Source of the DNA: Nocardia sp. NBC_00565
GTDB taxonomy: Bacteria > Actinomycetota > Actinomycetes > Mycobacteriales > Mycobacteriaceae
Assembly (NCBI RefSeq): GCF_036345915.1
Contig: NZ_CP107785.1
Location: 3,100,001-3,164,000, forward strand
DNA length: 64,000 nt
Reading direction: 5' to 3'
Within the stretch, counting starts at the first letter, position 1; each line of letters starts with the position of its first letter. The notes beneath the pieces are model-generated. The model saw only the letters and a program-made list of their open reading frames with translations. It was not told the origin of the DNA and made no database searches. Position numbers and translations under genes: made by a program. Shown here piece by piece: positions 1,983 through 26,977 of this stretch.

Positions 1983-1998
1983 TTAGTCAATTGACTGG
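1983..1998. promoter_or_regulatory. Operator A site upstream of acyl-CoA synthetase
   Basis: TTAGTCAATTGACTGG contains the perfect 12-bp palindrome AGTCAATTGACT. It matches the motif found in the other block 1 promoters and beside the TetR gene at 19.5 kb. The region 1927-2208 holds no other recognisable gene. Confidence 0.6.
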
Positions 1999-2208
1999 TT
2001 CGTATGATCTGATCTAATGAACATATTGTCGCTGTCATCGCATCGTGCTGTCAATCACTCTGCAGATGTAATTTCGAAGCACCCGAAGTCGGATGTCGAA
2101 CAGCACGATGCTTACCGCGGTGGAGGTTCCACGCCGGCGCTTCTACGCCCCACGTCTCACTCTGTCTGGGACCGTACGATTTTGTGAATGAGGGCAGGAC
2201 GCTGGGCA

Positions 2209-2838
2209 CTACACCAGGAGTGGTGGCTCCGTCTTGGCGCGCACTTCCTCGAGTGTGACGTTCGGCGCGATCTCGACAAGCCGTAGGCCTTCGGGCACCA
2301 CGTCGATCACGGCAAGGTCCGTGATGATCCGTTGTACGACGCCGCGACCGGTGTAGGGAAGTGAGCACTCGTCGACGATCTTGTAAGAGCCGTCCTTGGC
2401 TACGTGCTCCATGAGGACGATAAGGCGCCTCGCACCCTGCACGAGGTCCATGGCGCCGCCCATACCCTTGACCATCTTCCCCGGAATCATCCAGTTCGAA
2501 ATGTCGCCCCGGCGTGAAACCTGCATGGCACCAAGGATCGACGCGTCGATCTTGCCGCCACGGATCATGCCGAAGCTGGTAGCAGAGTCGACGATCGAGG
2601 CACCTCGACGCAGGGTCACGGTTTCTTTGCTCGCATTGACCAAGTCCGGGTCTTCCGCACCCTCGAACGGGTATGGGCCCAGTCCGAGCAGGCCGTTCTC
2701 GGACTGAAGGACGACCTCGATGCCGTCGGGAACGTGGTTGGGAACGAGACCCGGGATGCCGATACCGAGGTTGACATACCAGCCGTCCGCGAGCTCCGCA
2801 GCCGCCCTGGCGGCCATCTGCTCACGTGTCCAGCTCAT
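2209..2838 (-). CDS. CoA-transferase subunit B (3-oxoacid/glutaconate family)
   Basis: This 209-residue protein is the small (beta) subunit of a family I CoA-transferase. It carries [15 protein letters not shown] and the catalytic glutamate in [10 protein letters not shown] (Glu47), which forms the glutamyl-CoA intermediate. Family members (ScoB, PcaJ) move CoA from succinyl-CoA to acetoacetate or 3-oxoadipate. The ATG at 2838 overlaps by 4 bp the stop of a 26-codon reading frame that itself overlaps the end of subunit A, so translation is probably coupled. A longer frame starting at 2889 exists but lacks family similarity before MSWTREQM. It is the last gene of the operon starting near 10.7 kb. 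Confidence 0.9.
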
Positions 2839-2915
2839 GACTGCGCCTCGCTTTCGCTCGGCTCCGTCATGCGCGAGGCGCCCTGGCACATGATTCGCTC
2901 GCTGCGCTCGCTCAT
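2835..2915 (-). CDS. Possible 26-residue coupling peptide between CoA-transferase subunits
   Basis: The frame [20 protein letters not shown]... (26 codons) starts inside the stop of subunit A (ATGA overlap at 2912-2915) and ends inside the start of subunit B (ATGA overlap at 2835-2838). It begins with the GAGCGAGCGCAGCGAGCGA repeat often seen in mycolata intergenic DNA. It may be a true micro-ORF, a translational coupler, or an inserted repeat that happens to stay open. No homologue is recognised. Confidence 0.35.
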
Positions 2916-3697
2916 GAGGCGTTCTCCAATCTCGGACGGGTCACCAGGCGTTCGATCCGTTTGTCGGCCGCCTCTGCCGGTGTCAACTCGACGACGCGAT
3001 GCACGAAGACTCCTGAGGTGTGGACCTCTGCAGGATCGAGATCACCGGGCTCCACCAGTTCCTCGACCTCGGCGATCGTTATCCGTCCGCACATAGCAAC
3101 GAGCGGGTTGAAGTTCTGGGCCGACGAGCGGTAGATCAAGTTGCCATGACGGTCTCCCTTCCACGCTCTGACCAGTGCGAAGTCCGCCACGATGGCGCGC
3201 TCCATGACGAATTCTCTCGCCCCTTCCGGAGTGTCGAATACCTCCGTGCGTTTCGGGGGTGAGGACACGAGGATCTCGCCGCTCGGGCCGTACCGCCACG
3301 GAAGACCGCCCTCGGCGACCTGAGTCCCGACGCCGGTCGGCGTGTAGAAGGCAGGAATTCCCGAACCACCGGCCCGCATCCGCTCCGCGAGCGTTCCCTG
3401 CGGCGTGAGCTCAACCTCGAGTTCGCCCTGCAGGTATTGACGAGCAAACTCCTTGTTCTCCCCCACGTAGGACGACACCATGCGGCGTATCCGCCCTGCA
3501 CCGAGCAACACCCCGAGACCGGCATCGTCGATGCCGCAATTGTTCGAGACGACCTCGAGATCGTGAGCGCCCTGGTCGAGCAGCGCGTTGATGAGCGTCG
3601 ACGGGATTCCGCACAGGCCGAATCCGCCAACGGCCAGCGTGGTCGAGCTTCCGATATCGGCAACGGCTTGTGCCGCTGATGGTGAAACCTTGTCCAT
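2912..3697 (-). CDS. CoA-transferase subunit A (3-oxoacid/glutaconate family)
   Basis: The 261-residue alpha subunit pairs with the downstream beta subunit. It shows the family signature [17 protein letters not shown] near residue 24 and [15 protein letters not shown] shortly after, followed by the conserved [13 protein letters not shown] segment of the ScoA/PcaI group. ATG at 3697 has ACAAGG upstream. Together A and B would exchange CoA between succinyl-CoA and an acid made by the oxidative steps of the operon. ScoAB-like, PcaIJ-like and adipate-type activities cannot be separated by eye. It lies 29 bp downstream of the class III aminotransferase gene. Confidence 0.9.
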
Positions 3698-3726
3698 GGT
3701 GGCGCCTTGTCTCGGTTTGGGTTATG

Positions 3727-5037
3727 TCACAGTGACGACGCGTTGCCGACAAGCCCGTCGACAACTTCGCCCAGAACGTCGACCGTGCGGTCAACGTCCG
3801 CACGCGTGTGCTCAGTGCTGAGAAAAATCTTGCCGGTCGGCAAGAACGCGACTCCCCGCGCCAGCGTGCCAGCGGTGATGCGGTCCCAGATGTCCGCAGG
3901 AGCCGCGACTGCCGCACCGTCGGACTGTGGGACGAAGGTCGCGAAGGATCCGACCCGCCTCGACGTGGGGCGATATGGCAGGCGGTCGAAGACTGACTGA
4001 ACGCCGGACTGGAAGTACGCCGAGACGTCCTCCAGGCGGTCGTAGACCCCGGGCTCGGCGAGGATCTCCTGGGTTGCTTTCACCGCGGCAAGTGCCACGG
4101 GGTTCCCGTTGTACGTTCCCGCGTGTGACACACCGTGCTGAACTTGGTCGATCAGCGCCGCCTTCCCGACAACCGCACTCTGCGAGAAGCCTCCCGCAAT
4201 GGCCTTGCCGAACGTTGACAGGTCAGGCGTCACGCCGTAGCGCTCCGTGACGCCACCGCGCGCGATGCGGAAGCCGGCAATCACCTGGTCGAAGATCAGT
4301 ACGACGCCGTGTTCATCGCACAACTCACGCAGTCGCTCCAGGTATCCCGGAGCAGGTGGAATCAGGCCGGCATTGCTCATGATCGGATCGATCAGTACCG
4401 CGGCGATGTCGCGCTCGCGGGCCTCTCCGAGTATCCGTTCGGCCTCCGAAATACTGTTGTATTCGGTGACAACGAGGTCACGGATCGCATTGAGACTTTG
4501 GCCCGCGGTACTCCGCATAGCCTTCTCGGCGGTGTGGTCCGCGCCCATGCTCGCGTATACCGAGTCATGCCAGCCGTGGTAACTCCTGGTGAACTTGAGA
4601 ACCTTGCTGCGCCCGGTCCCGGCCCGTGCGAGGCGAAGGGCGATCTGTACGGCTTCGGTGCCCGAGTTCGTCCACAGCAAGCGCTCGGCCCCGGGCACGG
4701 CCTCGAGTACGAGCTCGGCGGCTTCGTACTCCAGGGTGTGCCCCATCCCGACCATCTGCATACGAGGGATGACCTCCATCACGGCCTCAACGACGTGCGG
4801 GTGGCTATGCCCGACGATGCTGGGGCCCCAGGCCATGACGTAGTCGATGAACTCGGCACCGTCGAGGTCCCAAACATGCGCGCCGGCGGCCCTGTTGACG
4901 AAGAGTGGATGCGGCTTCGTTGCGGCCCGCATGCCGGAACTGACTCCTCCGCCGACGCTGCGCTTGGTGCGCTCGAAGGCCTCATGAGAAGCATCCAGCG
5001 AAAGAGGGCTGCTGAGGCGCTGGTACGAACTTGTCAT
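3727..5037 (-). CDS. Class III aminotransferase (glutamate-1-semialdehyde aminomutase-like)
   Basis: This 436-residue PLP enzyme has fold-type I landmarks: NSGTEAVQIALRLAR, SYHGWHDS, and the Schiff-base lysine in LSTFGKAIAGGF (Lys278). The usual Asp-Glu-Val before the PLP pocket reads Asp-Gln-Val (IFDQVIAGFR, residues 249-252), an unusual change at a conserved position. In this catabolic setting it is more likely an amine or amino-acid transaminase or aminomutase than HemL of tetrapyrrole synthesis. Its ATG at 5037 overlaps by one base the stop of a 42-codon gene, so translation is probably coupled. Confidence 0.85.
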   Translation of the reverse strand: MTSSYQRLSSPLSLDASHEAFERTKRSVGGGVSSGMRAATKPHPLFVNRAAGAHVWDLDGAEFIDYVMAWGPSIVGHSHPHVVEAVMEVIPRMQMVGMGHTLEYEAAELVLEAVPGAERLLWTNSGTEAVQIALRLARAGTGRSKVLKFTRSYHGWHDSVYASMGADHTAEKAMRSTAGQSLNAIRDLVVTEYNSISEAERILGEARERDIAAVLIDPIMSNAGLIPPAPGYLERLRELCDEHGVVLIFDQVIAGFRIARGGVTERYGVTPDLSTFGKAIAGGFSQSAVVGKAALIDQVQHGVSHAGTYNGNPVALAAVKATQEILAEPGVYDRLEDVSAYFQSGVQSVFDRLPYRPTSRRVGSFATFVPQSDGAAVAAPADIWDRITAGTLARGVAFLPTGKIFLSTEHTRADVDRTVDVLGEVVDGLVGNASSL

Positions 5038-5165
5038 CAGATCGCTCCTATGGGAGGGACAACCCCCGGATCGGGCACCGGTCGAGACGATGCAGCCTCT
5101 ACAGCGCGTGATAGCTGTATTCGGGCATCGAGAAGCGGGTTCTTCAGTGCGATTTCAACGGTCAT
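5037..5165 (-). CDS. 42-residue small protein of unknown function
   Basis: The ATG at 5165 has a strong ribosome site (GGAGGAG nine bases upstream). The frame overlaps the end of the kinase gene by 11 bp and the start of the aminotransferase by 1 bp (TGATG). The peptide MTVEIALKNPLLDARIQLSR then runs AVEAASS and a Pro-rich tail, PVPDPGVVPPIGAI. It has no signal peptide or membrane segment. Strong initiation signals and tight coupling on both sides argue that it is translated. I know no family for it. It occupies the place after an APH-like kinase where Pseudomonas lva operons have the kinase partner LvaB, but it is far shorter and shows no visible similarity. Confidence 0.6.
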   Translation of the reverse strand: MTVEIALKNPLLDARIQLSRAVEAASSRPVPDPGVVPPIGAI

Positions 5166-6234
5166 AGCTGGGGGCTCCTCCGGCGGTCTCGTACGACGTG
5201 CTGGCGAACCGACGCGACCGAGTCCCGATCGCGTCCAACCCTGCCGCAATGAACTCCTGCGTTGCCTCCGCCGCTAGTTCGGCGCCCGGTCCCGAACTCG
5301 CCCCGGCGATCGCCCGGTGCGTGATGCCTTCGCCGATCACCGCCAGTTTGAAGTTCGCCAACGCTAGGTAGAAGTCCCAGTTCGGCAGGTCGCGCCCGGA
5401 CTCTCGGGCATACCTCTCCGCGATCGAGTCCGCCGACGGATACCGGTCGCTCGTCCACGCGGCATTCACACCGAGTACGACATCGAAGATCGGTTGGCGA
5501 TAGACGCACATCAACGCCACGTCGGTCAGCGGATCACCGAGCGTCGACATCTCCCAATCGACCACGGCAGCAACCGTTCCCGGATCACCGTCGGCCAGGA
5601 TCGTATTGTCGACCCGGAAGTCGCCGTGCACGATCGACGACTCCGAACTCGCGGGAACGGCCGCGTCCAACGCATCGCGCAGGCGCTCCACATCCGGCAG
5701 ATCACGGGTCTGCACGCTCCCCCACTGACGCGCCCAGGTAGCAACCTGCCGGCGGACGAAACCCTCCGGCCGGCCGAAACCCGACAATCCGACAGCGTCG
5801 TAATCGACCGCGTGCAAGCGAGCGAGCACCTGCACCAGCTCCGACGTATTGGCCTCGATATCACTGTCCGACAACGCCAGTAGATCGTCCTGCGTCCGTA
5901 TCACGGTGCCGCCGACGTACTCCACGACGGTTGTCGGTGCCCCGAGAACCAGCCCCTCTGGATCGAACGCAACCGCTCGGGCCACCGGCACATCGGTCCC
6001 ACCGAGAGCACTCGTCACCGCCCACTCGCGGGCCATGTCATGGGCGGACGGGGTCAGCCCACTCGTCGGTGGCCGGCGCACCACCCACGCCGAGACATCG
6101 TCGAACGCCTTGAACGTCAGGTTCGACCGACCCCCGCTGATGAGCTCGACCCTCAGATCCCCTTGCAGGTCGACGCCGTTGTCGCGTAGAAACTTCTCCA
6201 GCGCAGGTGTGTTCATCCCCTCGAACTCCCTCAT
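5155..6234 (-). CDS. APH-like kinase (LvaA/ACAD10-11 N-domain type)
   Basis: The 359-residue protein has the aminoglycoside phosphotransferase/choline kinase fold: ISGGRSNLTF in the N-lobe, catalytic HGDFRVDN (Asp205) and metal-binding VVDWEMSTLGDP (Asp226). This subgroup sits next to acyl-CoA dehydrogenases and in known cases phosphorylates 4-hydroxyacyl-CoA (LvaA; ACAD10/11), not antibiotics. The ATG at 6234 overlaps the acyl-CoA dehydrogenase stop by 4 bp (ATGA). A second ATG at 6216, preceded by GGGAG, would give MNTPALEKFL and may be the main start. A role in hydroxyacyl-CoA catabolism is inferred from the pairing. Confidence 0.85.
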   Translation of the reverse strand: MREFEGMNTPALEKFLRDNGVDLQGDLRVELISGGRSNLTFKAFDDVSAWVVRRPPTSGLTPSAHDMAREWAVTSALGGTDVPVARAVAFDPEGLVLGAPTTVVEYVGGTVIRTQDDLLALSDSDIEANTSELVQVLARLHAVDYDAVGLSGFGRPEGFVRRQVATWARQWGSVQTRDLPDVERLRDALDAAVPASSESSIVHGDFRVDNTILADGDPGTVAAVVDWEMSTLGDPLTDVALMCVYRQPIFDVVLGVNAAWTSDRYPSADSIAERYARESGRDLPNWDFYLALANFKLAVIGEGITHRAIAGASSGPGAELAAEATQEFIAAGLDAIGTRSRRFASTSYETAGGAPSYDR

Positions 6235-7442
6235 GCCGAGGCCTCACGAGCGGCACGACGCGCGGCACCGACGGCCCGTTTCGCGATTGCCCACCGATGC
6301 ACCTCGGACGGACCGTCGTACACCCGGAAGGGACGCACCTCACGCGACAACCGCGCCAACGGAAGATCGTCCGAGACCCCGAGTCCGCCGCACATCTGAA
6401 TGCCGCGGTCGACGATGCGGAAAATAGCCTCTGCCGCGAAGGTTTTCGCGATCGACGTCTCGTTTCCCGCCTTGGACCCCTGATCCAGCGCCCAGCACGC
6501 GTGCACCAGCAGCGCCCTCGTGGCGGCGATGTCGATCTCGTTGTCCGCGATCATCTTCTGCACCATGCCCAGATCGCCCAGCTTTGCGCCGAAGCCCTCG
6601 CGCCGCGCCACGTGTGCGACGGCCACGTCATGGCCGCGGCGCGCGGCACCGAGCCAGCGCATCACGTGCGTCATCCGCGCCGGCCCCAGCCGTACCTGCG
6701 CGTACGAGAACCCTTCGTCGACGGCGCCGAGCACGTTCTCATCCGGTGCGAACACGTCGTCGAAGAACACTTCGCAGTGCCCGCCGATCATCGCCTTGTC
6801 CAGCGTGCCGATATGCCGCCCGACTTTGATACCCGCAGCGTCGGCGGGCGCGAGGAACATCGTCGCCCCACCCCGGTCACCCGGCGAACCGGACGTGCGG
6901 GCCATGACGATGAAGAAACCCGCACCGTCGGCACCGGTGATGAACCACTTGTGGCCGTTGATCTTCCAGCCGCCGGCCACTTTTGTCGCGGTCGTCGAGA
7001 GAGCCGAGGGGTCCGACCCGGCGCCCGGAGCAGGTTCGGTCATCGCGAACGCCGAGCGCACATCACCATGAGCCAGCGGCGCGAGGAATTGCTCCTTCTG
7101 CGCGGTCGACGCGACATGCGCGAGCAGGTGCACGTTGCCCTCGTCCGGTGCACCGATATGCAGGGCGATGGGCCCGAACAGCGAGTATCCGGCTTCCTCG
7201 AACACCGGGGCCCGGTCACTCATGTTGAGCCCGTGTCCGCCGTACTCCACCGGTACGTGCGGTGCGAACACACCGGCGTCCCTGGCCGCCGCCTGCATCT
7301 CCACCCGCCTGGTGTCGCCACCGGCGTCGGTGATGTTGCCGATAAACGCGTCTTCGATCGGCATCACGACCTCACGCGTGAATGCCCTTGTCTTGTCGAT
7401 GAGAGCCACGACGTGCTGGTCGTACCCGAGATCGATTGCCAC
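6231..7442 (-). CDS. Acyl-CoA dehydrogenase family protein
   Basis: The 403-residue flavoprotein has the FAD-binding signatures FAMTEPAPGAGSDPSAL and WKINGHKWFITGADGAG, and ends with ARLSREVRPFRVYDGPSEVH, where most relatives have GTSE. Start is GTG at 7442 with GGAAGGG upstream. It overlaps the kinase gene by 4 bp. In lva-like pathways the partner dehydrogenase removes phosphate from 4-phosphoacyl-CoA and rehydrates it to the 3-hydroxyacyl-CoA; the pairing makes that plausible, though ordinary alpha,beta-dehydrogenation is equally possible. The following SDR fits the same set. Confidence 0.9.
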   Translation of the reverse strand: MAIDLGYDQHVVALIDKTRAFTREVVMPIEDAFIGNITDAGGDTRRVEMQAAARDAGVFAPHVPVEYGGHGLNMSDRAPVFEEAGYSLFGPIALHIGAPDEGNVHLLAHVASTAQKEQFLAPLAHGDVRSAFAMTEPAPGAGSDPSALSTTATKVAGGWKINGHKWFITGADGAGFFIVMARTSGSPGDRGGATMFLAPADAAGIKVGRHIGTLDKAMIGGHCEVFFDDVFAPDENVLGAVDEGFSYAQVRLGPARMTHVMRWLGAARRGHDVAVAHVARREGFGAKLGDLGMVQKMIADNEIDIAATRALLVHACWALDQGSKAGNETSIAKTFAAEAIFRIVDRGIQMCGGLGVSDDLPLARLSREVRPFRVYDGPSEVHRWAIAKRAVGAARRAAREASA

Positions 7443-7494
7443 TGTTGGAGCCCTTCCACTGCCATCGGACGTTCACGTCTTGGCGCCGTATCTA

Positions 7495-8256
7495 TCAGTT
7501 GATGGTGACGCCGCCGTCGACGACGATGGTCTGACCGGTGATGTAGCCGGAAGCCGGGGAGGCCAGCCAGATCGCGGTGGCGGCGAGCTCTTCGGGGTCG
7601 CCGGTGCGGCCCAGGATCAGGCGGGGTCCGATCGCGGGTGGATGGCCCTCGGGGTAGTCCTCGGTCATTTCCGAGGCGAAGTATCCGGGGGCGATCGCGT
7701 TGACGCGGATACCTTTTCGGCTCCCCCACTGCTGTGCGAGGTCGCGGGTGAGCCCGGAGATTGCTGCCTTGCTGGCAGAGTAGGCGGCCTGCGGTAGGCC
7801 GGCGGTGGTGATACCCAGGATGCTCGAGATGTTGATGATCGAGCTACCCGGCTCCATGACCCGTCCGCATGCTTGTGCGGGCCAGTAAGACCCGCTCAGG
7901 TTGATGTCGACGACCGACCGGAACTGCTCAGGAGTCTCGCGGGTGGCGGGTACCGCGGAGCCGACACCGGCATTGTTGATCAGGACATCGACTCGCCCGA
8001 AGTCGGCCATCGCGGCATCGACGAGGGCGCCGGCCTGATGAGGGTCGGCGACGTCGGTCACCACACCCAGCGCATGCGCGCCCAGCGATTCGACAAGTTT
8101 CACTGTCTGCTGCAGTTTGTCGGCGCGGCGCGCAGCGAGTACAACCGTGGCGCCGGCCTCGGCGAAACCCTTGGCATATGCGACACCGAGACCCGAGGAG
8201 GCACCGGTCACGATCACCACTTTGCCCTCGATCCGAAAGCGGTCGAGCACGCTCAT
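7495..8256 (-). CDS. Short-chain dehydrogenase/reductase
   Basis: A classical 253-residue SDR. It shows TGASSGLG cofactor binding (residues 18-25), NNAGVG (95-100), the catalytic serine in INISSILG, and Tyr159-x3-Lys163 in YSASKAA. Asp is absent after beta-2 and AARRADK is present, which suggests NADP(H). Start ATG at 8256 follows AGGAGTCATAG. It would interconvert an alcohol and a ketone in the operon pathway, for example a hydroxyacyl or amino-alcohol intermediate. It is 27 bp downstream of the class IV aminotransferase gene, in the same operon. Confidence 0.88.
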   Translation of the reverse strand: MSVLDRFRIEGKVVIVTGASSGLGVAYAKGFAEAGATVVLAARRADKLQQTVKLVESLGAHALGVVTDVADPHQAGALVDAAMADFGRVDVLINNAGVGSAVPATRETPEQFRSVVDINLSGSYWPAQACGRVMEPGSSIINISSILGITTAGLPQAAYSASKAAISGLTRDLAQQWGSRKGIRVNAIAPGYFASEMTEDYPEGHPPAIGPRLILGRTGDPEELAATAIWLASPASGYITGQTIVVDGGVTIN

Positions 8257-8283: not shown

Positions 8284-9201
8284 TCACACATCGACATTGA
8301 AGGTGTGTTCCGAATCTGCGTGCAGATCCCAGTACCTGTCGCGTAGGAGCCGGGTGACCGGCCCGGGACATTCGTCGTGCGGACGCACTCCGTCCACGGT
8401 GGCCACCGGCATCACTCCGCCAGCGGTGCTGGTCAGAAACACCTCGGACGCATCCACGAGGTCGTCGACGCGGAGGTCGCCCACGTGTACCTCGCGCCCG
8501 TCCGCGCGGGCAATTTCGATAACGGTGCGGCGTGTAATCCCTTCGAGAACACCATCTTTCGCGGTGATCAAGCTACCGTCCTGGCGAACTGCGAAAATGT
8601 TGAATCCGGCGCCCTCGGTGATATTGCCGCGACCGTCGGTCATCAGCGCCAACGTGGCGCCGCGGTCGTACGCTTCGAACAACCCGCGGGTGAGGTCGGC
8701 CCAATGGAAATTCTTCACACGAGGATCGACGGCGTCGGTGGGGATGCGAATCGTCTCCTGCGCAATGATGACGTCCACTCCGTGTTGCTGTAATTCGGGT
8801 TTGACGATCCAAACATAAGGAACGGCGTAGACATACAGCCGCTGGGTGGCCGTCCGCGGATCTCGTTCACCAGGAACGGGAATACCGCGCGTGACGACGA
8901 CCTCGACAAAAGACTCGTCGAACCCGCCGCGTCGGACACACTCGACCATGAGGTCGCGGATTTCTGCCCTGGGTTTGGGCAATTGCAGGCGGAGGGTCTG
9001 ACAACTGCGTTCGAGCCGTTCGAGGTGATCATCGAGCCGGAAGAACTGTCGTTTCCACACGGCCGCAACATCGTAGGTCAGATCCGACCGTGTGAAGCCG
9101 GTGTCGAGAATGGGGATTCGCGCCTCTCCGATGGGCACGAATTCGCCCTCGATCCAGGCGCAACCCGCGGCATACGGGTTGGCGGCGGGCGTAGTGGTCA
9201 C
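8284..9201 (-). CDS. Class IV aminotransferase (BCAT / (R)-amine transaminase-like)
   Basis: The 305-residue product is a fold-type IV PLP enzyme. The Schiff-base lysine lies in DPRVKNFHW (Lys163), and ITEGAGFNIFAV and the phosphate-binding TSTAGGVMPV segment follow. An open frame extends upstream to 9501 but overlaps the monooxygenase gene; GTG at 9201 with GGAG six bases upstream starts MTTTPAANPYAAGCAW, where family similarity begins. It could deaminate an amine to a ketone or aldehyde, or a D- or branched-chain amino acid. The 11-bp gap to the monooxygenase stop implies cotranscription, consistent with transamination and oxygenation in one pathway. Confidence 0.87.
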   Translation of the reverse strand: MTTTPAANPYAAGCAWIEGEFVPIGEARIPILDTGFTRSDLTYDVAAVWKRQFFRLDDHLERLERSCQTLRLQLPKPRAEIRDLMVECVRRGGFDESFVEVVVTRGIPVPGERDPRTATQRLYVYAVPYVWIVKPELQQHGVDVIIAQETIRIPTDAVDPRVKNFHWADLTRGLFEAYDRGATLALMTDGRGNITEGAGFNIFAVRQDGSLITAKDGVLEGITRRTVIEIARADGREVHVGDLRVDDLVDASEVFLTSTAGGVMPVATVDGVRPHDECPGPVTRLLRDRYWDLHADSEHTFNVDV

Positions 9202-9212: not shown

Positions 9213-10676
9213 TCAGATGGATTCGAACTCGAGAACACCATCGTCGAACGGCGCCGTGAGGAGCTTCTTGGTGGCAACGTGGTTCTGCGGATTGATCCAG
9301 GGGGCTCGGTCGCCCTGACGGGGCAGCACGCCGTTTGCGCGTTGGAAATACCCGGAGGTGAAGCCCTCGACGAACGCCTCCCTCGGCATGGTTCGATCCT
9401 CCGGACGCAGGGTGGGCGTCACGCTCGAGGCTCCGACTTTGTCCATGTGGGTGAGCAGTCGGGCAATGTACTTCGCCACGAGTTCGGCGCGTACTGTCCA
9501 CGAGGTGTTGACGTATCCGAAGGTGGACGCCAGATTCGGGATGCCCGAGTAGGCCAGTCCCTTGTAGGTCCAGCGTTGGGAGAAGTCCACCGACTCTCCG
9601 TCGACGACAAAGTCGACCTCGCCGAGTGAGACAAGTTCGAGACCTGTTGCGGTGACGATGATATCGGCCGGGATCTCCTCGCCGGACTCGAGTTCGATCC
9701 CGTTCTCGGTGAACGACCGGATACGTCCGGTCGCCACGTCGGCTTTCCCGAACTTGATGGCTTGGAAGAAATCACCGTCGGGGATCAGGCAGACCCGCTG
9801 GTCCCAGGGCTGGTACGTCGGCGTGAAGTGCTTGTCGAGGTAGTCCTGTCCGACCAGGTCCCGGATTGCCTTGAAGAGTGACGCTTTGAACTCTTCGGGT
9901 CGCGTTTGTGCGAGCTTGTACATCTGCTGCTGTCGTTTGGTGTTCCGCCTGCGGATCATCCGGTACCCGAGTCGGTCGCCGAATATCTTGCGCAGACGCA
10001 GCGCCTTCTCGTCGATGGCCTGATCGATCGCCACGTACGACGGTGACCGTTGCAGCATGGTGACTTTCTCGGCCGTTTGCGCGAGGTTCGGTATCAACGT
10101 GATGGCGGTCGCGCCGGAGCCGATGACAACCACTTTCTTGTTCGCGTAGTCCAGGTCAGCGGGCCACTGTTGCGGGTGAATCACGGGGCCGGCGAATCGG
10201 TTTCGTCCCGGAAATTCCGGGGAGAAGCCGCTGCGGTAGTTGTAGTACCCGGAGCACATGAACAAGAAGTCGGCTGTGATCGTCAGAGTTTCCCCGAGGT
10301 GGTCGACCTGGAGCGTCCACCGTGCGGCCGCGCTCGACCATTCGGCGCGGCGGACTTGATGTCCGAATTTGATGTGCCGCTTCAGGTCGTGCTCGGACAC
10401 GGTCTCCCACAGATAGTCCAGAATGGAATCCCCGCTCGCGATCGCGCGTTCCTTGGTCCACGGTTTGAAGCCGTAGCCGAGGGTGTACATGTCGCTGTCG
10501 GAGCGAATCCCGGGATAGCGAAAGAGATCCCACGTGCCACCAAGATTGTCGCGCCCCTCGATGATGGCGAACTTCTTGTTCGGCGCTTCCTTCTGTAGGT
10601 GAACGGCCGCACCGATGCCGGACAGACCGGCCCCGACGATGACGACGTCGAAGTGTTCGATTCCAGGCTTGCTCAC
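9213..10676 (-). CDS. EthA-like class B flavin monooxygenase (Baeyer-Villiger/FMO type)
   Basis: The 487-residue protein closely follows the pattern of mycobacterial EthA. It has the FAD Rossmann motif VVIVGAGLSGIGAA (residues 11-24), LGGTWDLFRYPGIRSDSDMY, the fingerprint FAGPVIHPQQW (161-171, FxGxxxHxxxW), and a second NADPH motif VVVIGSGATA (182-191). EthA-type enzymes insert oxygen next to ketones or oxidise N and S atoms using NADPH and O2. Start is GTG at 10676 after AGGAAGCC. It is the first gene of the long operon, and an operator A site lies 40 bp upstream. A ketone from transamination or an amine nitrogen are both possible substrates. Confidence 0.92.
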   Translation of the reverse strand: MSKPGIEHFDVVIVGAGLSGIGAAVHLQKEAPNKKFAIIEGRDNLGGTWDLFRYPGIRSDSDMYTLGYGFKPWTKERAIASGDSILDYLWETVSEHDLKRHIKFGHQVRRAEWSSAAARWTLQVDHLGETLTITADFLFMCSGYYNYRSGFSPEFPGRNRFAGPVIHPQQWPADLDYANKKVVVIGSGATAITLIPNLAQTAEKVTMLQRSPSYVAIDQAIDEKALRLRKIFGDRLGYRMIRRRNTKRQQQMYKLAQTRPEEFKASLFKAIRDLVGQDYLDKHFTPTYQPWDQRVCLIPDGDFFQAIKFGKADVATGRIRSFTENGIELESGEEIPADIIVTATGLELVSLGEVDFVVDGESVDFSQRWTYKGLAYSGIPNLASTFGYVNTSWTVRAELVAKYIARLLTHMDKVGASSVTPTLRPEDRTMPREAFVEGFTSGYFQRANGVLPRQGDRAPWINPQNHVATKKLLTAPFDDGVLEFESI

Positions 10677-10715
10677 GATGGCTTCCTAAACGTCAGTGCA
10701 TTCTGTTCATTCGAC

Positions 10716-10730
10716 TTGATCAAATGATCA
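10716..10730. promoter_or_regulatory. Operator A site in the divergent monooxygenase/PhyH promoter region
   Basis: TTGATCAAATGATCA consists of two palindromic TGATCA units separated by AA. It lies in the 253-bp space between the divergent monooxygenase operon (start 10676) and the dioxygenase gene (start 10930), so one site could control both directions. The rest of the space shows no gene. Confidence 0.6.
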
Positions 10731-10929
10731 CAGCCACCGCAGGGTCTGTCAAGAGGCGGGAGGACATTCACACAGGCGTCCGTTTGCGCTCTCAACCTTG
10801 CATTAACACTAAGTGTCCCTGCGAGACGCCTTGACAACGGGCCCGCCACGTCCGATTCTAGTCAAACGACCCAATCGGATGATCCACAGAGCCTGGGTTA
10901 TCCACACCATCGAGTGGAGAGCGCACGTC

Positions 10930-11802
10930 ATGACCGGCACCGAAACATCCACAAGTGTTGCCCTGCGCCACGTCGCGCCGACTACGTCGGTCTCGGAGAT
11001 TCTCGAGATCGTCGACGCCGATGGCGCCGTGATCATCGAAGGGTTCCTCAGCCCAGACCAGGTTCGACGCGTCAACGCCGAAATCGACCCCGCCCTGGAG
11101 AAGCTCGGCGCGGGCTCGAAGCATGACGACGAGTTCACCGCCGACTTCCATGGCGCACAGACCAAACGCTTGACGAATCTGATCACCCTCAGCGAGACGT
11201 TCCGCAACGAGATCATCGACCACGACCTGCTGCACGCCCTCGGCGAAGCGGTCTACCGCGTCGAATCCGGCGACCACTGGATGACGACTGCCCAGGTCAT
11301 CGAGATCGGCCCGGGCAACAAGGCGCAACTTTTGCACCGCGACCTCGAGAACAACCACTTCGCGATCGGCATGGGTAAGACCGGCCCCATGGTGATGGTC
11401 AACTTTCTGATCGCGTTGACCGACTTCACCGAAGAAAACGGTGCAACGCGGATCATCCCGGGCAGTAACCAGTGGGACGACTACGAAGACCGCGGCACCC
11501 CCGAGATGACCATCGCGGCCGAGATGAAGGCTGGCGACGTGATCTTCTTCAACGGCAAGGTCTCGCACGGCGGCGGCGCGAACGTCACCGACTCCGAGTA
11601 CCGACGCGGCCTGACCATCCCACTGCAACCAGCGTTCCTGACGCCGGAAGAGGCCTACCCGTTCCTCCTCGATCTCGAGCTCGTGAAGACGTTGTCTCCG
11701 CGCGTGCAGAAGCTCATCGGGTTCCGTTCCCTGTACCCCAAGGGATCACCGGGCCTGTGGCAGAGCAACTACGAGGACATCTCCGACCTCCTCGGCCTCT
11801 GA
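10930..11802 (+). CDS. PhyH-family Fe(II)/2-oxoglutarate dioxygenase (copy 1)
   Basis: The 290-residue protein has the phytanoyl-CoA dioxygenase layout. An HxD iron pair lies in LLHRDLEN (His136, Asp138), the distal iron His213 in VSHGGGAN, and a following Arg in YRRG would hold 2-oxoglutarate. It would hydroxylate or demethylate a small substrate with O2 and 2-oxoglutarate. ATG at 10930 follows GGAGAG; longer in-frame starts upstream have no ribosome site. It is clearly paralogous to the gene at 27045-27926 (shared GATR-IPGS, WDDYEDRGTPE). It is transcribed divergently from the monooxygenase operon. Confidence 0.88.
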   Translation: MTGTETSTSVALRHVAPTTSVSEILEIVDADGAVIIEGFLSPDQVRRVNAEIDPALEKLGAGSKHDDEFTADFHGAQTKRLTNLITLSETFRNEIIDHDLLHALGEAVYRVESGDHWMTTAQVIEIGPGNKAQLLHRDLENNHFAIGMGKTGPMVMVNFLIALTDFTEENGATRIIPGSNQWDDYEDRGTPEMTIAAEMKAGDVIFFNGKVSHGGGANVTDSEYRRGLTIPLQPAFLTPEEAYPFLLDLELVKTLSPRVQKLIGFRSLYPKGSPGLWQSNYEDISDLLGL

Positions 11803-11862: not shown

Positions 11863-11910
11863 CGTTCGACGAACGATTCCCAATCCATCACGTACGAAGG
11901 AGGTTTCGCC

Positions 11911-17705: not shown

Positions 17706-18333
17706 CGAACCTCATCTTGTTGAAAGCGCCGGTCATGACCGACAACTGCGGAAGTGTTCCCTGAATAGCGACGGCGCCGGCGCCCAATGCTTCGAGCAGT
17801 CCGACAGTGCCCGTGCACAAGCGGGACAGATCGTCCTCGGTGGCCACCAGTCGGTACGTCGGGAGGCCCGAACCCAGCACCAGACGCTCGTTGGTCGCGA
17901 TGGATTCGAGGATCAGCTCGTGCGGCATTCCGGGCGATTCGGCTGTGCGAGACCAGAATTCGTGCGCAGCGGTCTTCCAATCCATCGACGACGTCGGATT
18001 CACCAATGCGGCAATGTCGTTGATGAGTTGTTCGTCACCGGTGGATGCCTCGACATCGACGGCCAGATCGTAGACGTCGACCATGGCTGTGGCCGTGGCC
18101 GCAATAGCGGCGCCGTGACTGATCTCGATACGGCCGTCCGCCAGAACGCAGGTCGCTGTCTGAGGGTCTCCCTTTGCCGAAATCACCACGGTCCGTTCGC
18201 CCTTGGGCGGTCCGGCCGGTATCTGTGTGCCCTGCCGGAGAGCCGATCGAATCGCGCGTGCCACTGCGCGCACGAACGGTGTCGCATCGTCCTCGATGAC
18301 GACACCGAGGACGGACTGGTCTACTTCGGTCAT
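17698..18333 (-). CDS. SCP2-like protein of unknown role
   Basis: The 211-residue protein has no recognised catalytic motif. Its C-terminal part (LSRLCTGTVGLLEALGAGAV followed by IQGTLPQLSVMTGAFNKMRF) has the look of a sterol-carrier-protein-2 domain, and an earlier segment (TATCVLADGRIEISHG) fits the same beta-rich fold. ATG at 18333 follows GAGGAG nine bases upstream; codons further upstream lack such a site. It is the first gene of the gamma-glutamylation operon and overlaps the ligase by 8 bp, so it is probably a partner in the pathway, possibly binding the substrate. The family assignment is moderate. Confidence 0.6.
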   Translation of the reverse strand: MTEVDQSVLGVVIEDDATPFVRAVARAIRSALRQGTQIPAGPPKGERTVVISAKGDPQTATCVLADGRIEISHGAAIAATATAMVDVYDLAVDVEASTGDEQLINDIAALVNPTSSMDWKTAAHEFWSRTAESPGMPHELILESIATNERLVLGSGLPTYRLVATEDDLSRLCTGTVGLLEALGAGAVAIQGTLPQLSVMTGAFNKMRFDV

Positions 18334-18404
18334 GACGATCATCTCCTCGTACTGTTTCCAGGCCGGCCGCATCACAGGCGCTAGATCAATCCTGAGCGTT
18401 TGAC

Positions 18405-18420
18405 TGGATCATATGATCAT
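18405..18420. promoter_or_regulatory. Operator A site upstream of the gamma-glutamylation operon
   Basis: TGGATCATATGATCAT contains the perfect palindrome GATCATATGATC, 72 bp upstream of the SCP2-like gene. The rest of the 18334-18866 gap (533 bp) shows no coding similarity on either strand. Confidence 0.6.
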
Positions 18421-18866: not shown

Positions 18867-19508
18867 TTAGCTCACGGCAGAACGCACCTGCGCGGCAACC
18901 GATTGGGCGGCTCCCCGAGAAGCACTCACATAGGTCGAGATCATGGCGCACGCGAGCTCGACGTCACCTTGAAGTCGTGCGTCGTTCGGGTCGCTGACCC
19001 ACTGCAGCGTAAGGCCGTCGATGATGCTCAGCACCACGCGTGCCAGCGGCTCGACCATGGACGGGTCGTCGTTGACTCCCACCGATGCCCGCAGTATGCG
19101 CAAGTACCCCTCGATGAAGTGGGCGTATACCCGGTTTGCCCACTCCACATCCTTGCCGTCGCGCCGAAGACCCCACAATAAGAGGTCGAACTGCACCCGC
19201 GCATAGTTGGGATGACGCGTCGACCACTCCATAGTCGCCCGGACAATGCGGGCGGCGGTGACGGCCAAATCCCCGTGGCCCTTGATGGCCTCGGCCTGGC
19301 CTTTCAGTATGTCCGCGGACATATGTTCGAACACCGCGAAGAATAGTTGCTCTTTGGTATGGAAGCAGTAGTGCAGCGTGGCGAGAGGAGCCTCCGCCGC
19401 CTCGGCAATTTTACGGGTCGTGGCCCTATCCATGCCCTGCTCGGCGATCACACGCACCGCTGCCTCGATGAAGTCCTGCCGCCGTTGCTCTGCGGGCACC
19501 CGCGCCAT
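18867..19508 (-). CDS. TetR-family regulator (candidate master regulator of block 1)
   Basis: The 213-residue protein has an N-terminal TetR helix-turn-helix (RRQDFIEAAVRVIAEQGMDR then TTRKIAEAAEAPLATLHYCF) and a C-terminal ligand domain with LRILRASVGVNDD. ATG at 19508 follows GGGGAG. An operator A palindrome lies 21 bp upstream, the position expected for autoregulation, and a second copy lies at 19689-19702. The same motif occurs at several other promoters in block 1, which makes this the best candidate for the repressor. That it binds them is an inference. Confidence 0.88.
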   Translation of the reverse strand: MARVPAEQRRQDFIEAAVRVIAEQGMDRATTRKIAEAAEAPLATLHYCFHTKEQLFFAVFEHMSADILKGQAEAIKGHGDLAVTAARIVRATMEWSTRHPNYARVQFDLLLWGLRRDGKDVEWANRVYAHFIEGYLRILRASVGVNDDPSMVEPLARVVLSIIDGLTLQWVSDPNDARLQGDVELACAMISTYVSASRGAAQSVAAQVRSAVS

Positions 19509-19528: not shown

Positions 19529-19545
19529 TTAGTCATAAGACTAGA
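19529..19545. promoter_or_regulatory. Operator A site at the tetR promoter
   Basis: TTAGTCATAAGACTAGA contains the inverted repeat TAGTC-N4-GACTA and lies 21 bp upstream of the TetR start codon. Confidence 0.6.
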
Positions 19546-19688
19546 ACACTCTAGCTTCGATGCTCTAAAGATAGCAGAACCGAAGGCCCGGAGGTCATCG
19601 CCTGCCAGCGGCACGTCCTCCGGGGCAAATCTTCCGTTCGCATGCGTGGCGCGTCACACGTACGAACGGGCAACGACCGCACAGTCTC

Positions 19689-19702
19689 GTTCAACTGACC
19701 AA
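19689..19702 (-). promoter_or_regulatory. Operator A-like site between tetR and the esterase remnant
   Basis: On the minus strand this reads TTGGTCAGTTGAAC, matching the copy TTAGTCATTTGAAC at 23935-23948 in 12 of 14 bases. Confidence 0.45.
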
Positions 19703-19798
19703 GTCTAGTGGGACTACGGGGGCGCCTCGGGCTTCTTCGCTCGGCAGCTGCGGCTGTCGTCGGCCTCGTCGGCTGCTCCGCCACCAGGAGTGGTTAGC

Positions 19799-23714: not shown

Positions 23715-23731
23715 TTGACCAATTGATCAGG
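23715..23731. promoter_or_regulatory. Operator A-like site upstream of the kinase gene
   Basis: TTGACCAATTGATCAGG fits the motif with one half reversed (TTGAcC-AATTG-ATCA). It lies about 200 bp upstream of the kinase start and 320 bp upstream of the imine reductase-like gene. A 73-codon minus-strand frame at 23561-23782 covers it but shows no family similarity. The 23514-24048 gap otherwise shows only the second site at 23935. Confidence 0.45.
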
Positions 23732-23934
23732 ATCAATGCATGGCGATGTCGCGGCGCGCAACAGAGGAGCGACAGGCGACATCGGGGGGAACGCCCGCTA
23801 CGTCGAGATCACGGCGCCCACGCCAAGCGTGTCCAGATGCACCGAGAGCTCGACGTTTTATCACTCACGCGTGTAAAGACTACGTTTCAGTGCTTGACGT
23901 CACACCGTGTCGAGGCAACACTGTCACTACTTCC

Positions 23935-23951
23935 GTTCAAATGACTAAGTC
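23935..23951. promoter_or_regulatory. Operator A site upstream of the imine reductase-like gene
   Basis: The minus strand reads GACTTAGTCATTTGAAC, containing the TTAGTCATWWGA core shared with the tetR promoter site. It lies about 100 bp upstream of the start at 24049. Confidence 0.55.
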
Positions 23952-24048
23952 TTCCGACCGCCTCAGCGCTTCCCGACCGCTCCCACGAACGAGTACCAGG
24001 ACGAGCGGCCACCGGATCGACGACGTACCGACCACGAAAGAGCCGATC

Positions 24049-24960
24049 ATGCCCCTTGCGGAACCTCCCGCCGACATCACGCCGAACCGGCCCTCACACG
24101 TCGCAGTCATCGGTACCGGCCTGATGGGCAGCGCCGTCGCGCGAGCCTTGCTGAACAATCGCTACCCGGTAGCGGTATGGAATCGCACCGCCGGCCGGTG
24201 CGAATCGTTGCGCGATCTCGGGGCTCAGATCGCCGACACCGCGGCCGACGCCGTCCGAGTCAGCGATGTGGTCATCTTGATGGTGCTGGACTACGCAGCA
24301 GCCCGCCAAATTCTCGACGAGTCCTCGGAGTTGCTGCGCGGCAAGACAATTATCAATCTGGTGACAGGTTCGGCGGCCGAGGCGAGCGCATTCGGCGCCT
24401 GGGTCGACGACGTGGGCGGCACGTATCTCGACGGCATCATCGCCGCCTATCCGGGTCAGATCGGCAAACCGTCCACACTGTTCTACTACGCTGGCAGTCT
24501 CCCGGCATGGACTCGATACAAGACACTGCTGACCGCATTGGCCGGTGCGGCGACCTTCGTCGGGTCGGAGCCTTCCGCTGCGAACGTCATCGACGCCGCC
24601 ATGACTGCCACCTTCCACACCGTTTCCATCGGGGCTTTTCTCGAGGGATTGTCCTACGCCCGTTCGGCCGGCGTCGATCTCGACGAGATCAAACGGACCT
24701 TGCCGTACTGGCTCGATCTCCTCTCCCAGGAACTCCATGTTGCGATCGACGACGTTCAGGCGCGTTCTCACACCACCGACCAGGCAACTCTCGAGACGTA
24801 TCTCGTGGCGTTGCGCACCATCAACAAATCCATGGTCGGCTCCGGCGAACGGGCCCACCTGCTGAGCGCAGCAATCGACAACCTGGAGCGGGCGTACGCC
24901 GCCGGACACGGTCAGGGGGCACTGTCCGCACAAATCCTGACAGCCCAGGCAGAACGCTGA
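24049..24960 (+). CDS. Imine reductase/beta-hydroxyacid dehydrogenase family oxidoreductase
   Basis: The 303-residue protein has the Rossmann motif HVAVIGTGLMGSAVARALL, WNRTAGR (an Arg-containing NADPH-selecting loop) and TIINLVTGSA, followed by the all-helical dimerisation domain (ANVIDAAMTATFHTVSIGAF). The NLVTG segment in place of the dehydrogenase GTS signature and the C-terminal pattern fit imine reductases better than 3-hydroxyisobutyrate dehydrogenase. It could reduce cyclic imines or act in reverse on amines. The chosen ATG at 24049 avoids overlap with the operator; an in-frame ATG at 23941 lies inside it. It precedes the permease by 91 bp. Confidence 0.83.
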   Translation: MPLAEPPADITPNRPSHVAVIGTGLMGSAVARALLNNRYPVAVWNRTAGRCESLRDLGAQIADTAADAVRVSDVVILMVLDYAAARQILDESSELLRGKTIINLVTGSAAEASAFGAWVDDVGGTYLDGIIAAYPGQIGKPSTLFYYAGSLPAWTRYKTLLTALAGAATFVGSEPSAANVIDAAMTATFHTVSIGAFLEGLSYARSAGVDLDEIKRTLPYWLDLLSQELHVAIDDVQARSHTTDQATLETYLVALRTINKSMVGSGERAHLLSAAIDNLERAYAAGHGQGALSAQILTAQAER

Positions 24961-25051
24961 TCGCGACTCCCACCGGCGAGGCAACTCCCGAATATCCAAC
25001 GCCACTCGCTTGAATCCCAGCCCACTCAGACCTTCACGCAAGGACACTGCA

Positions 25052-26530
25052 ATGACCTCGACACCCCAGGTACGACCGGATATTCCCACCGCCGGTGCCG
25101 CCGACAACTCGAACTCCGGCGAACTGAAGGGGGCGATGACCACCTTCGACATCGTCTTCACGGTCCTCGCCTTCAACGCACCGCTCGCCGTCTTCGCCGG
25201 CTACCTCACTGTCATCATCGGCTACGCCAACGGACTCGGCGCCCCGCTCACGTTGCTGGCCGCAGGGCTGGTCGTGCTCGTATTCGCAGTTGGCTTCACG
25301 GCCATGAGCAGGCACCTACCCAATCCGGGCGCCTTCTACGCCTACATCACCGCCGGACTGGGGCGACCAATGGGCCTCGGAGCAGCGTTTCTGGCTCTGA
25401 TTTGCTACGTGTTTCTGTACGTGTCGAGCTTGATCTACGCCGCCAACTCCATCAGCAGCCTCGTACAACAAGTCTTCAAGGGTCCGCTCATCGACTGGTG
25501 GATCTATAACGTGATCCTGATCGCAGTAGTGGGCGTTCTCGGGTTCTTCAGAATCACCCTGTCCGCGCGGATCCTCACTGTCGCAATGTGTCTCGAAGTC
25601 GTTATCATCGTCCTCTACAACGCCGTCGTCTTCGCACAAGGTGGTAGCGAAGGCTACACCTCCGCTCCCTTGCAACTGCACTACATTCTCGGTGGTTCGG
25701 TCGGTCTGGCTGTGCTCTACTGCATCGGAATGTTCTCCGGATTCGAAGCAACAGCTATCTTCCGCGAAGAAGCACGGAACCCCGAAAAGACCATTCCCCG
25801 CGCCACCTACATCGTCATCGCCGTCGTCGCGGTCCTGTATTCGGTAACGTCGTTCGCAATCATCATCGGAATCGGTCCCAGCTCGGTTGTCGACGCGACC
25901 GCGACCGATCCAGTCGGCTCCGTGCTCTCGTCGATCGACCACTACCTCGGTAAGACCGCACTCGACATCACCCAGGTGCTCCTGTGTACCAGCATCTTCG
26001 CCGCGGTACTGGCCATGCACAACATCATCGCCCGCTACCTCTTCTCGATGGGCCGGGATCGAGTGTTCCCCCGCAAGCTTGCCGCGGTGCACCCGACGCA
26101 CGGGTCTCCGCACATCGCGTCATTCGCAACCAGCGTGATCGCAGTCGTGTTCCTGATCGCCGTACTGGTCATCGGCGCGGACGGTAACGCGCTCTACGCC
26201 AAACTGGCAGGAATCGCCCTCTACGCGTTGATCGTCCTGCTCCTGCTCACCAGCGTCTCGATTCCCCTGTACTTCCGCAAGCATGCGGACCACGGTATCG
26301 GCGCCTGGAAGACCACCGTCGCGCCCCTGCTCAGCGGCGTCGGATTCGCGGTCGCACTCGTCCTCGCCACCAAGAACGCCGCTTTCCTCGTCGGTGGATC
26401 ACAAACTGCCGCAAACCTGTTGATCGCGGTCTTCATCGCCGCACTCCTCCTAGGCATCGGCTACGCACTCGTGCTCCGGAAGCAGCGCCCGGACACCTAC
26501 GCACGGATCGGTCGCCAGGAAGTCGCCTGA
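25052..26530 (+). CDS. APC-superfamily amino acid/amine permease
   Basis: The 492-residue integral membrane protein has about 12 hydrophobic helices and the APC hallmarks: a short Ser/Thr-rich N-terminus before LKGAMTTFDIVFTVLAFNAP, a cytoplasmic FREEARNPEKTIPRATY loop and GRDRVFPRKLAAVHPTHGSP. It should import an amino acid or amine with protons. Start ATG at 25052 follows AAGGA; the earlier in-frame codon at 25010 has none. Its place just after the imine reductase-like gene suggests that it takes up the nitrogenous substrate of the block. Confidence 0.9.
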   Translation: MTSTPQVRPDIPTAGAADNSNSGELKGAMTTFDIVFTVLAFNAPLAVFAGYLTVIIGYANGLGAPLTLLAAGLVVLVFAVGFTAMSRHLPNPGAFYAYITAGLGRPMGLGAAFLALICYVFLYVSSLIYAANSISSLVQQVFKGPLIDWWIYNVILIAVVGVLGFFRITLSARILTVAMCLEVVIIVLYNAVVFAQGGSEGYTSAPLQLHYILGGSVGLAVLYCIGMFSGFEATAIFREEARNPEKTIPRATYIVIAVVAVLYSVTSFAIIIGIGPSSVVDATATDPVGSVLSSIDHYLGKTALDITQVLLCTSIFAAVLAMHNIIARYLFSMGRDRVFPRKLAAVHPTHGSPHIASFATSVIAVVFLIAVLVIGADGNALYAKLAGIALYALIVLLLLTSVSIPLYFRKHADHGIGAWKTTVAPLLSGVGFAVALVLATKNAAFLVGGSQTAANLLIAVFIAALLLGIGYALVLRKQRPDTYARIGRQEVA

Positions 26531-26553
26531 CAACTATCTCGCCTCCCACTCCT

Positions 26554-26592
26554 GTTGTCCCGGTCAGGTCACGACGACCTGACCGGGACAAC
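26554..26592 (+). terminator. Hairpin terminator after the permease gene
   Basis: A perfect 17-bp stem (26554-26570 with 26576-26592) and 5-base loop lies 24 bp after the permease stop. From 26593 to 26948 no gene is recognised on either strand. Confidence 0.8.
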
Positions 26593-26948
26593 GGGATGAC
26601 CAACCGGACCGCGCACACTCGATGGGCCGACCACGCCGCCGAGATCAATTGCTCCGCAGCACGATCGGATTCGAAGCACACCTCATGACCGTCTCCACAT
26701 CTGTTCCCGCGTTCCAATCCCTTTTCAGCGGAGACAAACTCGGCAAAGTCGTGGTCAGATCCTCCTAGTCGGGACCTCGCCTTCGTCGCAACCACATCCT
26801 TCGTCTGCTGTCGTCGACGCAGCCGCCAGCGTGCGGACGATGGGCGGATTTCCCGATCAGCGCCGTCGCGTGCAAAGGTGCGCTGCGCAGCTCGGACTTC
26901 GAAACAGTTCACATTCGCCCTTGACTCGGCTTCTCTGCAAGTAATAAG

Positions 26949-26977
26949 TTGGTCATATGATCTGGTCCTTTGATCAG
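26949..26977. promoter_or_regulatory. Tandem operator A sites upstream of PhyH gene 2
   Basis: Two adjacent copies, TTGGTCATATGATCTGG (26949-26965) and TGGTCCTTTGATCAG (26963-26977), share a TGGTCNNNTGATC core at a 13-14 bp step, about 70 bp upstream of the start at 27045. The first aligns with the tetR promoter site. Confidence 0.6.

Follow-up and report, generated by a model that had tools for sequence, protein, structure and literature searches.

The 64,000-nucleotide window analysed here, positions 3,100,001 to 3,164,000 of contig NZ_CP107785.1 of Nocardia sp. NBC_00565 (genome G000; the window is G000:C1:3100001-3164000), contains an island of amine-type catabolic genes with a recurring tandem operator at its promoters. 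The operator is made of 14-bp palindromic modules, RDTC-N4-GAHY, that follow one another at a step of exactly 13 bp; it has two modules and, in two cases, three. The window holds six of these operators; three more are found within 4 kb of its left edge, in a stretch into which the island extends (Table 1). On the strength of the sequence comparisons described below, the sites are very probably the operators of a subfamily of TetR repressors, with the island genes forming one catabolic programme under TetR-A, encoded within the island, and probably also under its paralogue TetR-B.

A first-pass annotation had listed a palindromic motif at eight positions of the window, and all eight fit TTRGTCAWWWGAYY with at most two mismatches. 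The window contains 19 match rows for this type of motif on both strands, whereas 100 shuffles gave 3.1 (standard deviation 2.0, largest 9), and 17 of the 19 fall within 1983-26977. With at most one mismatch, the 9.71-Mb single-contig genome has 30 rows, seven of which lie in 3096207-3126962, a span that starts 3.8 kb outside the left edge of the window and ends at window position 26962. The annotation had recognized only the site at 26949 as a tandem; that site is one, and those at 1983, 10716, 18405 and 23935 are tandems too. The reported sites at 19529 (tetR), 19689 and 23715 are not full tandems. The claim that all the sites are intergenic stands if the later start codons of PhyH1 (10930) and imine reductase IRED2 (24049) are correct, as we think they are; to the left of the window, the 3097487 site overlaps an alternative upstream start of PhyH0.

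We analyzed the spacing of the modules by a leave-one-out scan of eight sites, which gave mean scores of -6.4 at offset -13 and -3.7 at +13 against a background mean of -18.0. The values at -8 (-4.2), +8 (-4.6) and +5 (-5.7) reflect, we think, half-site overlap inside the module. The same step was found in other genomes. Among 82 strong modules in 41 non-G000 loci, a partner scoring at least 6 was present no more than 40 bp away in 68 cases, and the best partner stood at offset 13 in 57. Expressed as module pairs with offsets of 6-40, offset 13 accounted for 66 of 100 across 35 foreign loci and for none of six in the G000 background. The operator consensus from the relatives is TGGTCATATGACTTGGTCATATGACCA.

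A position matrix was built from foreign sites (83 tandems from 35 of the 41 non-G000 loci; 27 bp, 32 bits) and scored over 463,454 positions of G000, comprising the window and loci L001-L020, of which L004-L020 had been taken because they contain single motifs and so form a hard rather than a random background. The island operators ranked highest: the top ten positions, with neighbours within 8 bp merged, all lay in the island and represent eight operators scoring from 39.0 to 20.2, and the first two positions elsewhere scored 20.0 and 19.9. The foreign sites had been chosen with a module matrix from G000, so that the foreign matrix is not wholly independent. A pattern composed from the foreign consensus after the island sites had been seen gave eight rows across the 9.71 Mb at no more than one mismatch, corresponding to seven operators, all in the island; at two mismatches it gave 16 rows, eight of them in the island.

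A few positions outside the island deserve mention. The one scoring 20.0 (L009 9894-9920, genome 2406894) lies by eye between genes resembling a short-chain dehydrogenase/reductase (SDR) and a thiolase and is perhaps a distant operator, and the one scoring 19.9 (L017 11411) lies by eye inside a P450-like frame and is probably a chance match. Positions L015 10158 and L014 8570 each scored 15.0, the same as the tetR-B site. Single motifs also cluster at genome 1.51-1.56 Mb; the strong modules among them lack any partner with a score above 0 at a distance of 13 bp in either direction, and the cluster is probably unrelated. The pattern RDTCNNNNGAHYNRDTCNNNNGAHY has 14 exact places, eight in the island and six that are GC-rich; at one mismatch it gave 120 places against seven for a backward-read control, a ratio that we did not count as evidence because GATC-type words are common. 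No Rfam family reached its gathering score within the window.

The tandem is conserved beside most of the closer relatives of the tetR gene. A genome-collection search yielded 15 loci, including those of a Mycobacterium metagenome-assembled genome, Williamsia, Rhodococcus, Nocardia, Actinacidiphila, Actinomadura, Hamadaea, Streptomyces, Actinoplanes and Xylanimicrobium. In twelve of the 15, all with the recognition helix HYCFHTK, the 350 bp upstream of tetR contain a tandem scoring at least 18; L031 and L032, which have a different helix, have none at this threshold and distance, and L035 has no tandem of at least 14 in its 20 kb. The first relatives were found with the peptide patterns HYCFHTK and MAR[VI]PAEQ, and the conservation of the helix among them is therefore partly a product of how they were chosen. 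We then considered places chosen by TetR similarity only. In the family to which the window belongs, a TetR match at E 1e-35 occurs in 52 of 401 genomes, at 69 places: 30 short loci (one being G000's own), L002 and 38 further places. A tandem of at least 18 was present in 28 of the 30 short loci (27 of the 29 that are not G000's own, which match at 150 bits or more) and at three of 379,506 positions of the G000 background. Of the 38 further places ten had it: nine of the 15 that match at 150 bits or better and one of the 23 that match below this value. On this result we restricted the claim, first made for the TetR branch as a whole, to a closer subfamily. Outside G000, the tandem is present at 36 of the 44 places that reach 150 bits. 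Counted by genome, 30 of the 52 family genomes with a TetR match, the window's included, have it in the stretches examined.

Taken by gene, a tandem stands no more than 350 bp upstream in 39 of 45 homologues from the named-species and family sets (one of the 45 being a fragment, L072 11967); the six misses are L031, L032, L083, the L072 fragment and the near-threshold L069 (17.4) and L071 (15.5). This set overlaps the place counts, with L106, L107, L108 and L130 in both, and the near-copy loci L061, L081 and L082 inflate the counts; L036-L038, which repeat other sequence, were left out of later counts. Around these tetR genes the same neighbours recur in varying combinations: orfX and genes for a glutamine synthetase-like (GS-like) protein, C26 hydrolase, alcohol dehydrogenase (ADH), aldehyde dehydrogenase (ALDH), CoA ligase, flavin monooxygenase (FMO), PhyH oxygenase, imine reductase (IRED), permease and alpha/beta hydrolase (abH). 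Few of them occur in L026, L031-L034 and L083, and the weak matches include those of CoA ligase and FMO, at about 30%. Williamsia muralis (L022) is among the carriers of the same cluster. The tandem sites of the relatives often lie between transcription units. The comparison of orthologous clusters suggested in the annotation supports its link between the regulon and the TetR gene at 18867-19508, in that the same tandem is kept beside most closer tetR relatives with recurring neighbour genes.

The position of the operators relative to promoter elements is consistent with repression. At 31 of 91 operators the word TTGAC begins 32-25 bp upstream, and seven control windows of equal width gave 0, 0, 1, 1, 0, 0 and 2; this count serves as the control for a promoter search that is biased, since it takes the best promoter per site. 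TTGAC also occurred at -34 (7), -36 (4) and -39 (3), and its occurrences at +7, +12 and +20 fall inside operators. In G000, eight of ten operators follow a TTGAC box, with the -10 element ending between 11 bp before and 7 bp inside the operator. Foreign promoters scoring at least 10 were in this roadblock position at 17 of 20 non-tetR operators and at one of 11 tetR operators. For the enzyme operons, the TTGAC about 30 bp before many of the operators points to repression over the -10 and start region; self-control of the tetR genes is less clear.

We propose that TetR-A, and probably TetR-B, binds these sites with one dimer per 14-bp module, so that an operator of 27 or 40 bp, beginning near the -10 box and extending past the transcription start, would carry two or occasionally three adjacent dimers at 13-bp intervals. 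Because the 13-bp step is fixed, this side-by-side binding may well be cooperative. When no inducer is present, the bound dimers would block about ten promoters of the 30-kb island, and with them about 24 genes (tetR-A and tetR-B counted); a compound of the pathway, perhaps an amine or an acyl-CoA derived from it, would release them.

Several observations weigh against this proposal. The tandem does not cover the whole TetR branch, as its presence at a single one of the 23 places below 150 bits indicates. L109, L110 and L111 have the helix PLASLHYCFHTK and reach scores of only 4.1, 7.4 and 12.5, and L083, a close relative, reaches 3.0. Among the promoters of G000, those of the tetR genes give the poorest fit, with a single module at tetR-A and a foreign-matrix score of 15.0 at tetR-B; the best-promoter search found no good promoter for either of these genes or for ten of the 11 foreign tetR rows. 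Two LuxR-type regulators are encoded in the same region and could also act there.

The number of repressors is the point at which the earlier claim of a single repressor becomes doubtful. The predicted model of TetR-A has nine helices (pLDDT 90.3), and its Foldseek matches are TetR proteins. It shares 42% identity overall with TetR-B, and the two are nearly identical around the recognition helix (ATTR-IA-AA-APLATLHYCFHTKE-LF). A TetR profile search of the genome, in which 150 of 190 candidates were scored, gave at least 36 matches, with TetR-A and TetR-B at 425 and 395 bits and the third match at 78. We examined 20 of the at least 34 other TetR loci of G000, and none of the 20 had a tandem or exceeded 9.0. 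The tree joins TetR-A to proteins of Mycobacterium, Williamsia and Rhodococcus (99/99) and, at low support (85/51), TetR-B to L025 and L071. TetR-A is rare, exceeding 300 bits in three of the 401 family genomes, the window's included. Pairs of tetR genes close together occur in L066, L067, L069 and L077.

It is possible, though we do not favor it, that TetR-A alone binds these operators and that TetR-B has a different or looser target. TetR-A orthologues (80-82% identity) accompany the GS cluster in three other genera, the tandem of TetR-B is weak (17.0, or 15.0 by the foreign matrix), and L071, its tree partner, and the similar proteins of L109-L111 lack a full tandem. Set against this are the nearly identical recognition helix of TetR-B, the tandem ending 11 bp before its own ATG, the tandem of its other tree partner L025 (21.7), and the close tetR pairs of L066 and L067, in which each gene has a tandem. 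By eye, moreover, the best sites of L071, L110 and L111, each located 53 bp upstream, contain a near copy of the TetR-B module GAGTCAACAGATCA, which suggests that a weaker form of the operator may be conserved. The TetR-B-like genes of these three loci share a word, GACCAAGTCAA(C/T)AGATC, in place of a full tandem, and it resembles the TetR-B site of G000. Joint control by TetR-A and probably TetR-B is the reading that we retain. A more speculative extension, which we offer tentatively, is that an undescribed actinobacterial TetR subfamily, mostly with the helix APLATLHYCF, binds two- and three-module operators as side-by-side dimers in 13-bp steps, and that paralogues with the same specificity and different ligand domains compete for the same arrays. 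If so, one catabolic island would integrate two chemical signals through competing paralogues.

It is improbable that the TetR proteins bind these sites and activate, or act dually, at some promoters. The exact TTGAC is found in the preferred interval before only about a third of the operators (31 of 91), with further copies at the more distant positions given above; nevertheless, where the best promoter scores at least 10 (eight of ten G000 and 17 of 20 foreign non-tetR operators), its -10 element ends in the interval from 14 bp ahead of the operator to 7 bp inside it. Less probable again is that the kinase-LuxR fusion or the other LuxR-type protein binds the operators as an activator. Both genes are inside the island, and homologues of the fusion accompany this TetR/operator system in L071, L081 and L082 (57-83%), with a further one in L029 (35%), yet only these four of 35 relative loci compared have one, far below the spread of the tandem, and the operators tend to follow the -35 box instead of occupying the site expected of an activator. 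Recurrence of GATC/GTCA-type words by chance or through base composition can be dismissed with near certainty: single modules are frequent (179 positions scoring at least 8 per 399,740 G000 positions outside the window, L002 included), but the shuffles, the genome-wide pattern, the ranking by the foreign matrix and the presence of the operator beside related tetR genes all contradict it.

By gene order, the regulon under TetR-A and probably TetR-B would hold nearer 24 genes than the 18 or so first estimated. It is predicted to include a secreted-looking protein, PhyH0, TetR-B, the CoA ligase with IRED1 downstream of it, the eight-gene FMO operon, PhyH1-abH, the five-gene orfX/GS operon, TetR-A, IRED2-permease and PhyH2; the operon limits and several start codons are predictions. 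That these enzymes act in one pathway, as the annotation had suggested, is plausible from the gene content. The GS-like ligase, the C26 gamma-glutamyl hydrolase and ALDH occur together, and the set recurs in relatives; with ADH, it would match the needs of a gamma-glutamylated amino alcohol. An amine with an alcohol end may thus be taken up and gamma-glutamylated by means of the GS-like protein, ADH, ALDH, C26 hydrolase and SCP2-like protein. Further steps might comprise hydroxylation by the PhyH or flavin oxygenases, imine reduction, transamination and CoA activation. The kinase and acyl-CoA dehydrogenase (5155-7442, minus strand) match the two halves of ACAD11 and form a 4-hydroxyacyl-CoA module within the amine regulon; the pair would dispose of 4-hydroxyacyl-CoA. 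Orthology to the named puu enzymes was not reached at the NCBIfam cut-offs (NF045547, 162 of 650 bits; NF008471, 87.9 of 266 bits), and we therefore speak of Puu-like chemistry and not of the Puu pathway itself.

The product of orfX has no Pfam or NCBIfam match. Its predicted fold is SCP2-like (Foldseek E-values of about 1e-3), and some of its homologues bear the name SCP2-domain protein. The gene adjoins the GS-like gene in many related clusters and may encode a hydrophobic-ligand partner of amine glutamylation. To the left of the window, L002:15340-16080 (minus strand) encodes a secreted-looking protein that has no Pfam match and a triple operator upstream; homologues of 36-53% occur in the related clusters L081, L082 and L085. 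The frame at 19691-20158 (minus strand), between tetR-A and the kinase-LuxR gene, has by eye the look of a degraded hydrolase remnant.

Table 1. Genes and predicted operators of the island; positions refer to the window unless marked as genome positions, and "foreign" denotes the foreign-matrix score.
Feature	Position	Strand	Remarks
Triple operator	genome 3096193-3096232		left of window
Tandem operator	genome 3097487-3097513		left of window; overlaps alternative upstream start of PhyH0
TetR-B	genome 3098676-3099278		700 bp left of window
Weaker tandem, tetR-B	genome 3099290-3099316		score 17.0; foreign 15.0; ends 11 bp before ATG
IRED1, imine-reductase-like	1..289, continuing left to genome 3099435	-	284-aa frame; label from similarity to IRED2
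Acyl-CoA ligase (AMP-binding)	310..1959	-	PF00501, PF13193
Triple operator, CoA ligase/IRED1	1984..2023	-	modules at 1984/1997/2010 score 16.3, 13.0, 17.0; foreign 31.3 and 20.6
CoA-transferase subunit	2209..2889	-	PF01144; final gene of presumed FMO operon
CoA-transferase subunit	2912..3697	-	PF01144
Class-III aminotransferase	3727..5037	-	PF00202
APH-type kinase, ACAD11 kinase-domain-like	5155..6234	-	PF01636; 3dxp E 1.5e-54; ACAD11 8v3v E 7.8e-45
Acyl-CoA dehydrogenase, ACAD11 type	6231..7442	-	4hr3 E 1.7e-57; ACAD11 8v3u E 7.1e-55
SDR dehydrogenase	7495..8256	-	PF13561
Class-IV aminotransferase	8284..9201	-	PF01063; GTG start at 9201 likely
Flavin monooxygenase-like (FMO)	9213..10676	-	PF00743; first of presumed 8-gene operon
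Tandem operator, FMO operon	10704..10730	-	foreign 39.0, best of 463,454 positions
Tandem operator, PhyH1-abH	10859..10885	+	foreign 28.1; absent from first-pass list
PhyH1, Fe/2-oxoglutarate oxygenase	10930..11802	+	PF05721; nearest solved chains DhiD, EasH
abH, alpha/beta hydrolase	11830..12849	+	PF07859
Aldehyde dehydrogenase (ALDH)	12951..14441	-	PF00171; start 14441 or 14453
C26 gamma-glutamyl hydrolase, PuuD-like	14483..15247	-	PF07722; NF008471 87.9 bits, below cut-off 266
Zinc alcohol dehydrogenase (ADH)	15244..16353	-	PF08240, PF00107
GS-like, presumed gamma-glutamyl-amine synthetase	16350..17705	-	PF00120; NF045547 162 bits, below cut-off 650
orfX, SCP2-like protein	17698..18333	-	structure model and fold search; first gene of GS operon
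Tandem operator, gamma-glutamylation operon	18393..18419	-	foreign 29.2
TetR-A repressor	18867..19508	-	PF00440 44.6 bits, cut-off 24
Single module, 21 bp before tetR-A	19530..19543	.	module 16.8; foreign 7.1 as tandem, among weakest
Module with degenerate neighbour, upstream of tetR-A	19688..19714	.	module 13.8; foreign 9.0
Protein kinase-ATPase-LuxR fusion	20277-23513	-	
Single module	23716..23729	.	module 15.8; foreign 8.5 at 23703
Tandem operator, IRED2-permease	23934..23960	+	foreign 20.2
IRED2, imine reductase-like	24049..24960	+	PF03446, PF21761
Amino-acid/amine permease	25010..26530	+	PF13520
Tandem operator, PhyH2	26950..26976	+	foreign 31.4
PhyH2	27045..27926	+	PF05721
LuxR-type regulator	28042-29379		

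We compared the island with known systems. PuuR of Escherichia coli is a non-TetR protein, and the island regulator differs in being of the TetR type (PF00440). The likeness to puu lies in a repressor placed on gamma-glutamylation genes and in a GS-like enzyme, C26 hydrolase and ALDH that are alike in kind; the island goes beyond puu in its PhyH oxygenases, imine reductases, SCP2-like protein and 4-hydroxyacyl-CoA module. The nearest solved TetR structures by sequence are EbrR (3hta) and SCO1917 (3iuv), at about 65 bits; they are also among the best by fold, with about 24% identity in the fold alignment. The Lva set of 4-hydroxy-acid catabolism includes an SDR and a CoA ligase. LvaABCDE and ACAD10-ACAD11 resemble the island in reportedly using a kinase and an acyl-CoA dehydrogenase for 4-hydroxyacyl-CoA, but the island pair lies within an amine regulon. 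KstR and KstR2 each recognize a motif of their own, unlike the island paralogues, which have nearly the same recognition helix and the same type of operator. The two systems are alike in that two TetR repressors, reportedly so in mycobacteria, serve one catabolic programme (PMC3068626). PuuR reportedly represses gamma-glutamylation genes until an amine appears (PMC9397018). DarR places TetR dimers-of-dimers on overlapping palindromes (PMC10636190), and by analogy with it and similar TetR proteins more than one dimer may occupy the overlapping palindromes of the island. The DarR palindrome given there is ATACT-N4-AGTAT, in a 20-bp operator, whereas RDTC-N4-GAHY recurs here every 13 bp, sometimes three times.

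A search of the open-licence PMC literature found nothing on this operator or regulator, and the pair presented here is a candidate operator and regulator for an actinobacterial amine-degradation regulon not found described in that text. The predicted regulon narrows the genes to test for the substrate and gives imine reductases, which are of interest to industry, a defined catabolic context. The repressor and its operator could also be used together as a sensor for amines.

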